NCBI RefSeq assembly: GCF_030273315.1
Contig: NZ_CP127174.1
Coordinates: 248,001-312,000 of the forward strand
Direction: 5' to 3'
DNA length: 64,000 nucleotides
Source: Natrialbaceae archaeon AArc-T1-2
Lineage (GTDB): Archaea > Halobacteriota > Halobacteria > Halobacteriales > Natrialbaceae
The notes below the pieces were generated by a model. That model was not told where the DNA came from and searched no databases. It saw only the letters and a list, made by a program, of their open reading frames with translations. The position numbers were made by a program, and so were the translations under genes. This document shows, piece by piece, positions 24,253 through 29,973 of this stretch (positions are counted from its first letter, which is position 1; each line of letters starts with the position of its first letter).

Positions 24253-24360
24253 GGGGTGTCGTCGCACGCGCTGGAGAACGACGCGACATTCGACGAGCAC
24301 ATTCACGCCGTGTGTATTCAGAACCATTATTTCCCCCGGCGACACAGGTGTCCCCAGCCG

Positions 24361-25890
24361 ATGAGAATTCGCGTCGACTGGCGCTCGAGCTGTAGCCTGA
24401 CGGGGACGGTGCTGAAGTGGATCGCCGTTCCGCTCGTGGCTCCACTCGCACTGGCTGCGTTCGACGGCGACCCCATCCTCCCGTTTCTCGTTGCGATCGT
24501 GGTGACGGCCGTCGCTGGGATCTCCCTCGAGCGGTTGAGCGACGATCGCGACCTCCGACAACGCGAAGGGTTCCTGATGGTCGCGCTGACCTGGCTCGGC
24601 GTCGCGGCCGTCGGCGCGATCCCGTTTTTCATCGTCGGGCTCACGGCGGATGGAAACTCCGCGTTTGCCGGCCCCGTCGGAGGACTGGTCAACGCCCTCT
24701 TCGAGAGCACGAGCGGGTTGACGACGACGGGGGCGACCGTCATGAGCGGCTGGGACTTCGAGAATCAGCCCCGGGCGATCTTGCTCTGGCGACAGCTCAT
24801 CCAGTGGCTCGGCGGACTCGGCATCCTGATCGTCGCGATCGGGCTGCTCTCGAACCTGATGGTCGGTGGCGCTCAACTGATGGAGACCGAGACCCAGTCA
24901 CGGAACGTGACCAAGCTGACGCCGGAGATCGCGAGTACCGCCCGGCTCATCTGGGGACTGTACGTCGCGATCACCATCCTCGCTGCGACGACGTTTTACG
25001 CGTTACACCTCGTCGGGCTCGCGCCCAACATGGATCTCTTCAATGCGGTGTCACACGCGTTCACGAGCGTCGCGACCGCCGGCTTCTCGCCCGAACCCGA
25101 GAGCATCGGTGCGTTCGCGCCGATCGTCCAGTGGGCGGTGCTGCCGTTTATGATCCTCGGCGCGACCAACTTCGTCCTGCTGTACTATCTCACGCAGGGT
25201 GAGTTCGAACGTCCGCTTGAGTCCGAAGAGCTTCGGTTCTATCTCGGCCTCATCGTCTTCTTCAGCGTGATCGTCACCGTCATCATCGGTCTCGATCCGG
25301 ACGTCGAGAAAGGGTTCGAGGCGACGATCAGACACGGCGTTTTCAACGTCGTCTCGATCGTGACGACGACGGGGTACGCCTCGGCGGACTTCGACCTCTG
25401 GACGGCCGGGGCGAAACATGTCCTCTTTCTGTGTATGTTCCTCGGCGGGATGGCCGGGAGCACGACCTGTTCGATCAAGACGCTTCGCTGGCTCGTGATC
25501 CTCAAGGGGCTGTACCGCAACTTCTTTACGGCGATTCACCCGAGTGCGGTGCGGCCGATCCGGCTCGGCGACAGCATCGTTGACGAAGAGACGGTCAACG
25601 ACATCTTCGCCTACGTCATGCTCGCGATCGTCATCTTCTTCCTGCTGACGTTGTTCGTCGTCGTCGACGCCGCCAGAGCTAGCACGACCGTCACCGAGTT
25701 CGAGGCACTCGGCGCGTCCGCCTCGATCTTTCTGAACATCGGACCGGCGTTCGGCATGGCCGGACCGATGGACAACTACGCCGGCTTTCCCGTTACGACG
25801 CGTGCCGTCATGGTGATCATGATGTGGATCGGCCGCATCGAGATCATCCCCGTGCTCGTGTTGTTGCTGCCGGCGTACTGGCGATCCTGA
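24361..25890 (+). CDS. trkH: TrkH-family potassium uptake protein
   Basis: 509 residues from MRIRVDWRSSCSLTGTVLKW; the frame is open upstream, but a TATA-like ATTATTT lies about 30 bases before this ATG. The four pore-loop repeats of Trk/Ktr transporters are visible: TSGLTTTGATV, TSVATAGFSP, VTTTGYASADF and a final GPAFGMAGPM. Multiple helices flank each loop. It imports K+, a major osmolyte in haloarchaea, and normally works with TrkA/RCK subunits; here the RCK domains are on the upstream channel, and a separate trkA gene is not adjacent. Confidence 0.9.
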   Translation: MRIRVDWRSSCSLTGTVLKWIAVPLVAPLALAAFDGDPILPFLVAIVVTAVAGISLERLSDDRDLRQREGFLMVALTWLGVAAVGAIPFFIVGLTADGNSAFAGPVGGLVNALFESTSGLTTTGATVMSGWDFENQPRAILLWRQLIQWLGGLGILIVAIGLLSNLMVGGAQLMETETQSRNVTKLTPEIASTARLIWGLYVAITILAATTFYALHLVGLAPNMDLFNAVSHAFTSVATAGFSPEPESIGAFAPIVQWAVLPFMILGATNFVLLYYLTQGEFERPLESEELRFYLGLIVFFSVIVTVIIGLDPDVEKGFEATIRHGVFNVVSIVTTTGYASADFDLWTAGAKHVLFLCMFLGGMAGSTTCSIKTLRWLVILKGLYRNFFTAIHPSAVRPIRLGDSIVDEETVNDIFAYVMLAIVIFFLLTLFVVVDAARASTTVTEFEALGASASIFLNIGPAFGMAGPMDNYAGFPVTTRAVMVIMMWIGRIEIIPVLVLLLPAYWRS

Positions 25891-25998
25891 TACTGTCGGT
25901 CATACATACGTAACCCGCCCGCGAGAGCGGACGGGCTGACACCCGCTGCACCGCCGGTTGTGGCACACACCAGTTCACCGGTCCATGACCGACAGTAT
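25890..25998. mobile_element. 109-bp MITE-like element, copy A
   Basis: Bounded by perfect 14-bp inverted repeats: ATACTGTCGGTCAT (25890-25903) and ATGACCGACAGTAT (25985-25998). The right 30 bases, read on the minus strand, are identical to the left 30 bases of copy B at 28465. The interior is GC-rich and noncoding. It begins at the last base of the trkH stop codon. Confidence 0.75.
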
Positions 25999-26037
25999 GA
26001 CCGGACCCAGACCGCGGCCGACCGCGTCCTCGATCAG

Positions 26038-26688
26038 TCAGGTGCGTCGCCTGCTCCCATCGAGCGTCGATCGAAGCACCGCGTCCGTCCCCCGTCGAAC
26101 GCGCTCTGACGCCGCCTGCGTCGAGATGCCGAGTTCGTCCGCGAGTTCGGACAGCGTAACCTCTCGCGGAACCGAAAAGTAACCCCGCTCGGTGGCGAGT
26201 TCGAGCGCCTGTCGCTGTTCTGCGGTCAGCCCGGGACGGTCCAGTGACTCGCCTTCGAGCGAACTGATCCGGACGACCGAGAGCCCGATCCCGTCGCGTT
26301 CACAACGCTCGTGAAAGGCAGACAGCGCCGCGTGTGTCGGAAACCGGAGTCGGAACGTCCACCGGTCGCCGCCCCGGGCGTCGAGTACCGTCGCCCGGTT
26401 CGCCTCGAGTGCGTCGACGAGACGACCGGACCGTTCACCCCACTCGATGCGATAAAGCGTCCGACCGTCGATCCGATCGAGTTCCGACACCGACTCGACG
26501 CGCTCGCACGCGCCGACGCGTTCGTCGAAGACGTCGACGTCCGTGCCATCGACCCAGACGAACGGCACGAGCTGGCCGGACGTCGGGACGACCGCCTCGA
26601 CGCGTACTTCGACGTCGAGGTCGGCCGTGAGAACCTGTCCGAGCGTGAACTCGCCTGCATCGACTGCAAACACCGAGACGACGGCCAT
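26038..26688 (-). CDS. Bat-type (bacterio-opsin activator) HTH regulator
   Basis: About 216 residues from MAVVSVFAVDAGEFTLGQVL; ATGs 4 and 9 codons upstream exist, but a TTTTTGCTAT box lies about 20-30 bases before this one. The N-terminal two thirds (1-150) is the regulatory domain typical of haloarchaeal Bat proteins, and the C-terminal HTH (about 155-210) reads LTAEQRQALELATERGYFSV, then VTLSELADELGISTQAASER. It should be a DNA-binding regulator of unknown target. It is convergent with trkH and co-directional with ligA. Confidence 0.85.
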   Translation of the reverse strand: MAVVSVFAVDAGEFTLGQVLTADLDVEVRVEAVVPTSGQLVPFVWVDGTDVDVFDERVGACERVESVSELDRIDGRTLYRIEWGERSGRLVDALEANRATVLDARGGDRWTFRLRFPTHAALSAFHERCERDGIGLSVVRISSLEGESLDRPGLTAEQRQALELATERGYFSVPREVTLSELADELGISTQAASERVRRGTDAVLRSTLDGSRRRT

Positions 26689-26731
26689 AATTGGTGACAT
26701 GTGAGACGATAGCAAAAAGCTCTCGGCGGCG

Positions 26732-28435
26732 TCACGTCTCTCGAAGCGACCGGACTCGTTCTACGGTGTCGGCGTCGTCCGGATCTAGGTCCTCGCGAAC
26801 GCCGACGAACCGGGGAAACCGCAACGCGTAGCCGGAAGAGTACGTCGGCGAGGACTGGATCTCCTCGTAGCCGACCTCGAAGACGACCGCCGGCTCGACG
26901 TCGACGCTCGTCCCGTCCTGACTTCTGACGTGGGGTTCGAGCAACGCCGTCAGCTCGGCCAGTTTCTCGTCGGTGATGCCGGTCGCGACCTTGCCGATCG
27001 TCTCGTATGCCTCGCCGTCACGGATCGAGAGCTCGAACGTTCCGAGAAACGTCGCCCGCCGACCCTCGCCCCACTCGGCACCGGTCACCACGCAATCGAG
27101 GGTCTCGACGTCCGGTTTTCGCTTGAGCCATCGCTTTCCGCGTCGACCCGGCGAGTACGTCGAGTCGGGATCTTTGAGCATGATCCCCTCGTGACCAGAC
27201 TCGAGCGCCTCGGCGTCGATTGCGTCGATCTCGTCGGGGTCGTCAGTCAGCCACAGCTTCGAGCGGCCCTCGCCGCCTGCGAGCAGCGACTCGAGACGGG
27301 CGTGACGGTCACGCAGCGGCGTCTCGAGCAGGTCCTCGCCGTCGACGTGGAGACAGTCGAAAAAGACCGGTTCGACGGTCACGTCCTCGCGAGCCTTCGC
27401 GACGTCGTGTTTGCGCCGGAAGCGGCGTAACACCTCCTGGAACGGGAGCGGATCGCCCGCCTCGTCGATCGCGACGACCTCGCCGTCCAGAATCGCGGGG
27501 GCGTCGAGACGGTCGTCCGCGAACTCGACGACCTCGGGGAGGGCGTCGGTTACGTCCTCCATGTTCCGTGAGAAGACCCGCACCTCGTCGTCTGCGTGGT
27601 GTAACTGGACGCGTGCGCCGTCGTACTTCCACTCGACGGCCGCCTCCTCCCAGGACTCTACGGCCTCGGTCACCGTTCCGGCCTGAGCGAGCATCGCCTT
27701 CACCGGCCGGCCGACCGAAAGCGTCATCGCCTCGAGTCCCTCGAGTCCGTCCTCGATCGCGACGCGGGCGACCCGGCCGTAGTCGTTTGCCACCTGCAGG
27801 GCGCGTTCGACCCGATCATCGGGAACGTCGAAGGCGGCGGCGACGGCGTCTCTGACCGTCCCCTCGCCGACGCCGATGCGCATCTCGGCGAGGACGAGCC
27901 GGGCGAGATAGCGCGCCTCGGTGCTCGTACAGCGGTTGAACAGGCCAAAGAGCAGGTCGACCTTCCGGTCCTGGCTGCCCGATCCCTCGGCGGCCGCGAG
28001 GTCGACGAGCGTCTCGTGGACCTCCCGGATCGTCAGGCCGTCTGTGCCGTCGCCGTCGGTGAACGCCCCCAGTCCCTGCTGGCCGCCGAACTCGTAACTC
28101 GCCGCGACCGTGCCGATCTCGCCGACCGCCGCGAGTCGCGCCTCGACGTCGTCGGCGTCGACGTTTCGTCCGGCCGCCCGCGCGATCGCCTCGTGACAGG
28201 CGCTGGGTCCGACCTCGAGCTTGCGGGCGTCCCAGGCCGGGAACACCCGCCCCTGGACGTATCGGGCGACGACCTCGAGATCGCCGGTTCGCTCTTCGCT
28301 CTCTCCCGGCGTCTCGTCCCAGGGGTCCGTCCTGGCGGCGTGCTCGAGCAGTCGGCTGACGCCGTCGACGGTCCCGTGGTCTGAGGACTCGGCTTCGATC
28401 TCGTCGACCTGGTCGGCGAAGGCGGCAAACTCCAT
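26732..28435 (-). CDS. ligA: ATP-dependent DNA ligase
   Basis: 567 residues, the usual archaeal length. The nucleotidyltransferase motif I KYDGARVQ contains the adenylated Lys270; motif III FFDCLHVDG, motif IV EGIMLKD and motif V KRGKRWLKRKPD-like residues follow in order, then the OB-fold. It seals nicks in replication and repair. It has a helical N-terminal DNA-binding domain (1-230). The gene is transcribed toward the Bat regulator, and both lie between two inverted 109-bp repeats. Confidence 0.95.
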   Translation of the reverse strand: MEFAAFADQVDEIEAESSDHGTVDGVSRLLEHAARTDPWDETPGESEERTGDLEVVARYVQGRVFPAWDARKLEVGPSACHEAIARAAGRNVDADDVEARLAAVGEIGTVAASYEFGGQQGLGAFTDGDGTDGLTIREVHETLVDLAAAEGSGSQDRKVDLLFGLFNRCTSTEARYLARLVLAEMRIGVGEGTVRDAVAAAFDVPDDRVERALQVANDYGRVARVAIEDGLEGLEAMTLSVGRPVKAMLAQAGTVTEAVESWEEAAVEWKYDGARVQLHHADDEVRVFSRNMEDVTDALPEVVEFADDRLDAPAILDGEVVAIDEAGDPLPFQEVLRRFRRKHDVAKAREDVTVEPVFFDCLHVDGEDLLETPLRDRHARLESLLAGGEGRSKLWLTDDPDEIDAIDAEALESGHEGIMLKDPDSTYSPGRRGKRWLKRKPDVETLDCVVTGAEWGEGRRATFLGTFELSIRDGEAYETIGKVATGITDEKLAELTALLEPHVRSQDGTSVDVEPAVVFEVGYEEIQSSPTYSSGYALRFPRFVGVREDLDPDDADTVERVRSLRET

Positions 28436-28464
28436 CGGTGAAAAGTAGTCGACGGCCGAAACTT

Positions 28465-28573
28465 ATACTGTCGGTCATGGACCGGTGAACTGGTATCCGG
28501 GTGATCCGGCCGTTGAACGTGTGTCTGGCCGTGCTGTCACCAGCCGTGTTCACGTCGGTATGACCGACAGTAT
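28465..28573. mobile_element. 109-bp MITE-like element, copy B
   Basis: ATACTGTCGGTCAT (28465-28478) and ATGACCGACAGTAT (28560-28573) are the same 14-bp terminal repeats as copy A, with the same total length. The first 30 bases match the inverted copy A exactly; the rest of the interior has diverged. It lies between the ligA start and the DUF389 gene, so it may overlap promoters. Confidence 0.75.
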
Positions 28574-28653
28574 CAACTACCCCGGCCTGCACCCCGTCGT
28601 TCTCTTTCAGTAGCAGGACGAACGCTTTTCCGCACCATTGTGGAGACGAATCC

Positions 28654-29973
28654 ATGCGACTCGTCGAAGTGCTGATTCCGAAACGAAAACGCGAGGCCGT
28701 CGAGGAGGTTCTCGAGGACGAGGGGATCGATTACACCCTCGTCGAGGAGGGGAGCCACGACGAACCCTCGGTCGTCGTCACGTTCCCGCTGCCGACGCCC
28801 GCAGTCGAATCGATTCTCGACGACCTTCGGGAGACGGGCATCGACGAGGACTCCTACACGGTGATCGTCGAGGCCGAAACCGTCGTCTCCGATCGGTACG
28901 ACGACCTCGAACAGCGATACGCCCAGAACACCGCACGCATCTCTCGCGAGGAGATGCAGGCCCGGGCGAAGGATCTCACCCCTCGCTTCAGCACCTATCT
29001 CGTGATGACGATCATGAGCGTGATCGTCGCGACGGCCGGCCTGTTGCTGGACTCGCCGGCGGTCGTCGTCGGCTCGATGGTGATCGCCCCGCTGATCGGG
29101 CCCGCCCTCGGCGCGAGCGTCGGGACAGTGATCAACGACCAGGCGCTGTTCTGGCGAGGGATCAAACTGCAGGCGATCGGACTCGGCATCGGCGTCGTCA
29201 CCGCCGCCGTCTTCGCGATCGCTGTCCGCCAGGTCGGGCTCGTGTCGCCGATGATCGACCTCTTCGCGATCTCGGAGATCGAAGGGCGGGTACGGCCGGA
29301 CTTGCTCTCACTCGTCATCGCGATCGGCGCCGGCGTCGCGGGCGCGTGGACGCTCACCGCAGGCACCTCCGCCGCGCTCGTCGGCGTCATGATCGCCGCC
29401 GCGCTCGTTCCACCGCTGGGCGTCGTCGGAATCGGCATCGCGTGGGGTCGGCCCGAGGTCGCAATTGCGGCGGGCGTTCTCGTTCTCGTCAACATTCTGG
29501 CGATCAACGTCACCAGCCTCGCAGTCCTCTGGCAGAAGGGGTATCGACCGGAGAACTGGTTCGGTGCGGACGAAGCACGCGTCGCCACGAGACGGCGTGC
29601 GATCGCGCTCGTCGTCGCGATCGTCGCTCTCTCGACGTTTCTCGGCGTCGTGTCTTACGACACCTATCGGACCGGAGCCTACGAGGAAGACGTCACCGAC
29701 GACGTCACTGCCGTCCTCGAGTCGCCGGAGTACGCCGAACTCACGCTCATCGACGTAACGGTCGAGTACACCGATCCGGTCCCGCTCCGCCAGCCGGAGC
29801 GCGTCGTCGTGACGATCGGTCATCCGGTCGGAACCGACCCGCCACCGGTCGCCGAGGAGATCCAACCTCGCGATAGCGTCTACGCCGAGTCAGCGATTCA
29901 TCTGCCGACCGGGCCGCTCATCGACTCCCACCGCGCCGACGTCGTCGTCCGCTACACCGAACAGGAGCAGTAA
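28654..29973 (+). CDS. DUF389/TIGR00341 membrane protein
   Basis: 439 residues. A cytosolic N-terminal domain (1-105, MRLVEVLIPKRKREAVEEVL) precedes six or so helices (about 115-345) that contain the family signature DSPAVVVGSMVIAPLIGPAL and a later ALVPPLGVVGIGIAWG, followed by a C-terminal beta-rich extension. TIGR00341 proteins are widespread in haloarchaea and their function is not established. Copy B of the 109-bp element ends 80 bp upstream. Confidence 0.85.
   Translation: MRLVEVLIPKRKREAVEEVLEDEGIDYTLVEEGSHDEPSVVVTFPLPTPAVESILDDLRETGIDEDSYTVIVEAETVVSDRYDDLEQRYAQNTARISREEMQARAKDLTPRFSTYLVMTIMSVIVATAGLLLDSPAVVVGSMVIAPLIGPALGASVGTVINDQALFWRGIKLQAIGLGIGVVTAAVFAIAVRQVGLVSPMIDLFAISEIEGRVRPDLLSLVIAIGAGVAGAWTLTAGTSAALVGVMIAAALVPPLGVVGIGIAWGRPEVAIAAGVLVLVNILAINVTSLAVLWQKGYRPENWFGADEARVATRRRAIALVVAIVALSTFLGVVSYDTYRTGAYEEDVTDDVTAVLESPEYAELTLIDVTVEYTDPVPLRQPERVVVTIGHPVGTDPPPVAEEIQPRDSVYAESAIHLPTGPLIDSHRADVVVRYTEQEQ

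Follow-up and report, generated by a model that had tools for sequence, protein, structure and literature searches.

Why do two look-alike stretches of DNA, lying in opposite orientations, bracket the genes of a Bat-like regulator and of the DNA ligase LigA in the haloarchaeon AArc-T1-2? The sequence-only reading of the 64,000-nucleotide stretch that contains this locus (hereafter the window) had left two answers side by side: a pair of repeats that might invert the ligA block, or two MITE insertions. The interpretation we propose is that copies A and B are very probably independent insertions of a geneless 107-bp MITE, for whose movement in trans the transposase of TACT-ended elements of the IS630 family is the most likely agent.

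Two insertions at the trkH-bat-ligA locus

Both 109-bp stretches exist (copy A at 25890-25998 and copy B at 28465-28573), and each is bounded by a perfect 14-bp inverted terminal repeat, ATACTGTCGGTCAT. These dimensions are right for the sequence and not for the element: the A/T at the outer edge of the 109-bp stretch is part of a target duplication, and the true element is therefore 107 bp long with 13-bp terminal inverted repeats (TIRs), TACTGTCGGTCAT. When copy A is inverted, it is identical to copy B over 29 successive bases, starting at base 1 of the element (30 in the original 109-bp frame), and 78 of the 107 positions are identical overall. The four exact TIR copies of the window are not a product of chance: the 14-mer is matched there with at most three mismatches at 13 places, against 4.5 expected and a count of 13 reached in none of 100 shuffles, and the four matches free of mismatch are all ends of copies A and B.

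Target-site duplications, of which none had been visible at first, flank both copies (Table 1). That of copy A is a perfect TGA/TGA, and that of copy B (TTA/TCA) has decayed by one substitution. Copy A had been placed at the trkH stop, and the TGA stop codon proves to be the target site itself. The NCBIfam TrkH profile reaches profile position 482 of 483 at residue 543 of 544, and since it is aligned almost to its end at the end of the protein, this stop is the natural C-terminus. Copy B lies, as had been noted, in the ligA promoter region, within the predicted TATA box of the gene.

Table 1. Features of the trkH-bat-ligA locus (positions in the window)
Feature	Position	Strand	Basis
trkH, potassium uptake protein TrkH	24256..25890	+	Pfam TrkH and NCBIfam TrkH profile
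Copy A left TNA (TGA), the trkH stop codon	25888..25890	+	sequence
Copy A, 107-bp MITE, subfamily 1 (10 full-length genome copies)	25891..25997	-	
Copy A right TNA (TGA)	25998..26000	+	sequence
bat-like regulator, BAT and HTH_10	26038..26715	-	domain search
ligA, ATP-dependent DNA ligase LigA	26732..28435	-	NCBIfam LigA_Halo, 953.5 bits
Predicted ligA hybrid TATA box, TATAAG	28462..28467	-	aligned with relatives' TTAA boxes at the same position
Copy B left TNA (TTA)	28463..28465	+	sequence
Copy B, 107-bp MITE, subfamily 2 (16 full-length genome copies)	28466..28572	+	
Copy B right TNA (TCA), one base off left copy	28573..28575	+	sequence
DUF389 / TIGR00341 gene, adjoining copy B	28654..29973	+	profile matches

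A dispersed family with a TNA target duplication

The absence of other copies in the genome had been named as an outcome unfavourable to a repeat of this kind; the genome contains 36 paired copies, as counted by a script that pairs ends and leaves out 8 single ends without a partner. Twenty-eight are 107 bp long, five 101 bp, two 105 bp and one 106 bp. With at most one mismatch, the 3.36-Mb genome contains the 14-base end at 40 forward and 38 reverse positions (2 and 0 for a reversed control), and BLAST with copy A returns 39 matches. The full-length copies form subfamilies of 10 (including copy A), 16 (including copy B) and 2 members, the five 101-bp copies making a further group. All are short and devoid of transposase coding capacity, with few mismatches in the 13-bp TIR. 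The two look-alike stretches are members of this scattered MITE family, and the suggestion of two MITE insertions is borne out: A and B are two of 36 dispersed copies, belong to different subfamilies and occupy each its own target site.

The flanks follow the pattern TNA-TACTG...CAGTA-TNA, with TNA at 67 of the 72 ends. The middle base of TNA is the same on the left and on the right in 29 of 36 copies (32% expected, P = 2.5e-9) and all three bases agree in 27, and at offsets other than TNA the genome shows no comparable left/right agreement. In a second genome, that of YIM A00010, 48 of 67 copies have the same middle base on both sides (P = 5e-11) and 41 of 67 the same three bases, and about a dozen further copies resemble TA duplications. 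An empty site is supplied by the copy at C1:3076716, which is nested in another repeat (L078): after removal of the 107-bp insert and of one TCA, 109 bp remain, which align without a gap to an uninterrupted copy (L053), and the boundaries of the 107-bp element are thereby fixed. The host repeat (L053:1109-1217 and L078:930-1148) represents another family, also of 109 bp, whose ends are TACACCCGGTCAT and whose flanks look like TA.

Of 61 genomes, two carry the paired pattern: our own and that of the one other member of the genus in the search. A scan of 84,980 species genomes gave 48 stretches in three organisms: 42 in YIM A00010, 4 in Tc-Br11_E2g1 and 2 in MAG B79T1B8. The exact 14-base end is present in 14 of 125 genomes of the host family, and at the 13 places outside the genus it has no partner end. 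Viral contigs gave no match, nor did plasmids searched with copy B or phages searched with copy A. YIM A00010 also carries further TACTGTCGG-ended elements with TNA duplications (L098, L119, L129, L134, L139, L161 and L172), of about 95 bp and in some cases nested to about 205 bp, as well as 108-bp TACCGTCGGTCAT elements with TA flanks.

A candidate source of transposase

Among the DDE_3 (PF13358) loci of the genome we found an IS630-family element of 1072 bp in two copies (L242 and L244), whose limits were set by comparing one copy with the other. Its ends, TACTGTCGGCTAAAAG and TACTCAAGGACATAAGTACG, start with TACT, one of them with TACTGTCGG, and its duplications are TAA/TAA and TGA/TGA. Two overlapping frames match IS630 (NF033545), the first of them under the model cut-off; the NCBIfam transpos_IS630 score is 149.9 bits, and the overlap contains an A7 run, which may indicate frameshifting. 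With the second frame as query, matches at E<=0.001 were obtained in 164 of 392 genomes from the order. Fifteen IS loci with clear ends, 14 of them in other genomes, have TACTNNCGGCTRAA-like and TACTCACGGACATAARTACGTA-like ends with TNA; their duplications match in 13 of 15, a proportion biased upward by the TNA filter used in choosing the ends.

The resident IS630-family element has the first 9 bases of the left MITE TIR in common with the family, and no more. The right MITE end agrees with the IS right-end consensus at 17 of 22 positions in three of four groups (copy A, the sister species and YIM), that of copy B at 15 of 22, and the left MITE end at 12 of 22; at least seven matches in the nine positions 14-22 occur with a frequency of 7.6e-4 among window positions. 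The transposase loci searched yielded no IS that carries the exact 13-bp end in full, and YIM A00010, with its 114 forward and 115 reverse TIR matches, shows only a decayed relative of the 1072-bp element. Since the IS630 element has TACT ends and the same TNA duplications, we conclude that the MITE family is, to all appearance, IS630-derived, the 1072-bp element being the probable source of the transposase. The usual rule for IS630 elements is a TA duplication, and the TACT-ended subgroup (NF033545, PF13358) differs from it by showing TNA. In the mechanism we propose, the transposase would recognise the TACT..CGG..CAT ends, excise the element and join it to a TNA target, the fill-in of which would leave the 3-bp duplication.

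Other parents were considered and rejected. None of the DDE_Tnp_1 (PF01609) loci, 13 in our genome and 30 in two related genomes, has a TACTGTCGG end; a third related genome had no DDE_Tnp_1 match, and PF13359 had none in four genomes. A full-length IS between TIRs was sought in YIM A00010, where nested and neighbouring MITEs alone were found. Three further observations concern related ends. Two partnerless TACTATCGGTCATAAATACGCAAAC-like ends (L050:1001 and L067:1013) resemble the right end of the IS more closely than they do the MITE, and are perhaps decayed IS remnants. An IS630-type transposase locus of MAG B79T1B8 (L236:1254) has the end TACTCACGGACAGAGGTATTGA, which resembles the ends of the 95-bp YIM A00010 repeats. 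Finally, another IS630-type element of our genome, in three copies (L235, L238 and L240), is bounded by CTATAGTA...GTTAGAA and seems to have TA as its target.

Landing in stop codons

The position of copy A is not isolated. Eleven of the 36 copies, copy A included, lie exactly in a stop codon, according to genes called on the empty-site sequences with an in-house codon-usage caller and not taken from published annotation. Once the 5 copies without TNA on both sides and the 3 in genes are dropped, stop codons account for 11 of 28 non-coding TNA insertions, against 37 of 654 in a background made of the one 64-kb window (odds 10.8, P=6e-7). In YIM A00010, for the part of that genome's copies that was collected and after dropping 20 of 67 without TNA, one with a short flank and one in a gene, the share is 16 of 45 (15 stops in a later run with different training), against 264 of 3471 in a background of 20 regions rich in MITEs (odds 6.7, P=1.3e-7). 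When the expectation is conditioned on the same gap, the 11 stops of our genome compare with 8.9 expected, which is not significant (P=0.15), and the 16 of YIM A00010 with 6.0 (P=2.7e-6). The distance to the nearest stop peaks at exactly 0 (11 of 31 and, in YIM A00010, 15 of 46), and coding TNA is avoided, with 3 of 31 and 1 of 46 insertions in genes, respectively. Other TACTGTCGG-ended elements of YIM A00010 with perfect duplications lie in stops in 5 of 12 cases, and IS copies in 1 of 16.

The stop-codon landings are without visible harm. The TNA duplication regenerates the stop, because any TNA reads as TGA or TAA on one of its two strands. The ten genes concerned besides trkH all match known families, one of them being the DNA primase large subunit PriL, and the match ends at most 32 residues from the stop in nine of the ten (the exception is L057), as it does within one residue in TrkH. 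A preference for the target motif was rejected as the sole cause of the excess, since, weighted by the motif derived from non-stop sites, the expectation rises to no more than 9.7% and 12.5%. The simplest explanation is selection in favour of harmless sites, and the element would be a selfish repeat surviving where it is nearly silent. A bolder reading, which we consider rather unlikely, is that this family and the other TNA-duplicating TACTGTCGG-ended MITEs are specialised for stop codons: these would serve as self-repairing pads, to which insertion would be steered by something more than local sequence, such as the termination of transcription or of translation, and not by selection alone, while the same ends would rebuild TATA boxes.

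The ligA TATA box

In the predicted hybrid box of ligA, TATAAG, the TA comes from the MITE end and the TAAG from the host, the TAA within it being the target duplication. The box ends 26 nt before the ligA ATG, and the same distance of 26 nt is found in a relative (G016). Six relatives have TTAA upstream of ligA where our genome has the MITE end and TAA, as in the alignment of CGAACGCTTAAC in G002 (L289) with CGACAGTATAAG in AArc-T1-2, and the four remaining relatives of the alignment have TTTTA. According to an excerpt of a study of haloarchaeal promoters, these combine a CGAAA BRE with a TTWT box, and 72% of the protein-coding transcripts of Haloferax are leaderless (PMC4983044). Because the relatives' boxes align at this place and fit the haloarchaeal promoter pattern, copy B would have gone into the TATA box, and the predicted box of ligA is rebuilt at the relatives' spacing. 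The outward ends of the element (...CCGACAGTA) are followed by TNA, so that an insertion at the TNA within such a haloarchaeal box would re-form it at the same spacing. A second promoter copy, at C1:2190235 and in front of another gene, shows CAGTATTA where G016 has GTTTAG, 24 nt before the start in both by an alignment made by eye. Landings in TATA boxes show no enrichment (2 of 28 insertions verified, and 25 of 654 sites in the background), and a third candidate case (L053) was discarded, its 132-codon frame looking non-coding.

Discussion

Could the two copies nevertheless act together on the block that they enclose? Their inverted arrangement and the 29-bp identical run would suit an invertible segment, in which recombination between A and B would flip bat-ligA and switch the expression of ligA, as had been suggested. 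We regard this as extremely unlikely: the pair is not specific to the locus, A and B being two among 36 dispersed copies, of two subfamilies and with the modest identity given above; the site of each is accounted for by its own target duplication; and the order and relative orientation of ligA and bat are constant in the four relatives with the pair, out of 29 ligA loci examined. We give no more credit to a composite transposon in which A and B would jointly have brought bat-ligA here, an idea that the varying neighbours of ligA, and the absence of trkH and DUF389 from the 19-kb ligA regions of seven relatives, might recommend. The outer flanks, TGA and TCA, form no matching duplication, and there is thus no sign of the block moving as a unit; moreover, copy A has a perfect TGA/TGA of its own, and the inner flank of copy B is the conserved, predicted ligA TATA box.

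Two other readings bear on the nature of the family as a whole. A repeat of the SMR-A type of Haloquadratum walsbyi, mobilised by some transposase without relation to IS630, would agree with the size class and the prominent TIRs described in an excerpt of the SMR study (PMC3119063), and with the failure of the searched transposase loci to yield an IS carrying all 13 bp of the end. It is improbable, since SMRs are described in that excerpt without target duplication, whereas here the MITE and the IS630 element have in common both a strong duplication and their end sequence. A little less probable still is a domesticated regulatory element, retained for its function as an RNA structure or a protein-binding repeat. 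The single strands do fold better than shuffles (z from -3.3 to -5.4), and copies do lie at gene ends and promoters; however, the TIRs alone already yield a 13-pair stem, two-sided changes affect 3 of 33 interior pairs in one subfamily set and 0 of 34 in the other, with no covariation (terms of 0.08 and -1.48), Rfam gives no match above gathering, and the taxonomic range is patchy. Independent insertion of an IS630-derived MITE remains the reading we prefer.

Several known systems resemble this family in part. The pneumococcal RUP, for which movement by IS630-Spn1 has been proposed, is likewise a 107-bp, high-copy, intergenic repeat whose TIR is similar to that of an IS630-family element, as far as the excerpted reports describe it (PMC2229807, PMC3049150). 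The ends of the haloarchaeal family are similar to those of a resident IS630 element in the same manner, but RUP enters at TA, whereas TNA is duplicated here, in another host and with another sequence; some YIM A00010 copies look like TA. The SMR-A repeats, which are about 110 bp long, multicopy, haloarchaeal and bounded by prominent TIRs, have no known transposase according to the excerpt of their description, which ties the MITEs of Haloquadratum walsbyi to other transposons; SMRs differ in aiming at IS605-type palindromes and in the absence of the target duplication that is present in the 107-bp family (PMC3119063). The pneumococcal BOX repeat lies at the extreme 3' end in 36 of 58 BOX-overlapping CDSs, in the part of the report that treats them (PMC3049150); there the BOX sequence encodes the stop, whereas the 107-bp family takes the pre-existing stop as its target and duplicates it. 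The Correia elements of Neisseria, which include a 107-bp form (PMC2229807, excerpt), are also short TIR repeats able to supply promoters (PMC10969869, excerpt), but they carry whole sigma-70-type promoters, whereas here the predicted TATA box is composed of the MITE end and the target. A literature search returned no title or abstract opening on the 107-bp family or on TNA-linked landing in stop codons, and a search with the end sequence returned none on the family by title among the matches listed.

In conclusion, what appeared as the curiosity of a single locus becomes a dispersed haloarchaeal MITE family with a defined end, a defined target and a likely source of transposase. The fit of the TNA duplication to TGA and TAA stops offers a simple reason why insertion in the last codon of a gene, such as that of PriL, can be harmless. 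In the case of copy B, a DNA ligase gene has a transposon settled within its core promoter, and the predicted box there would have been re-formed from the insertion itself.
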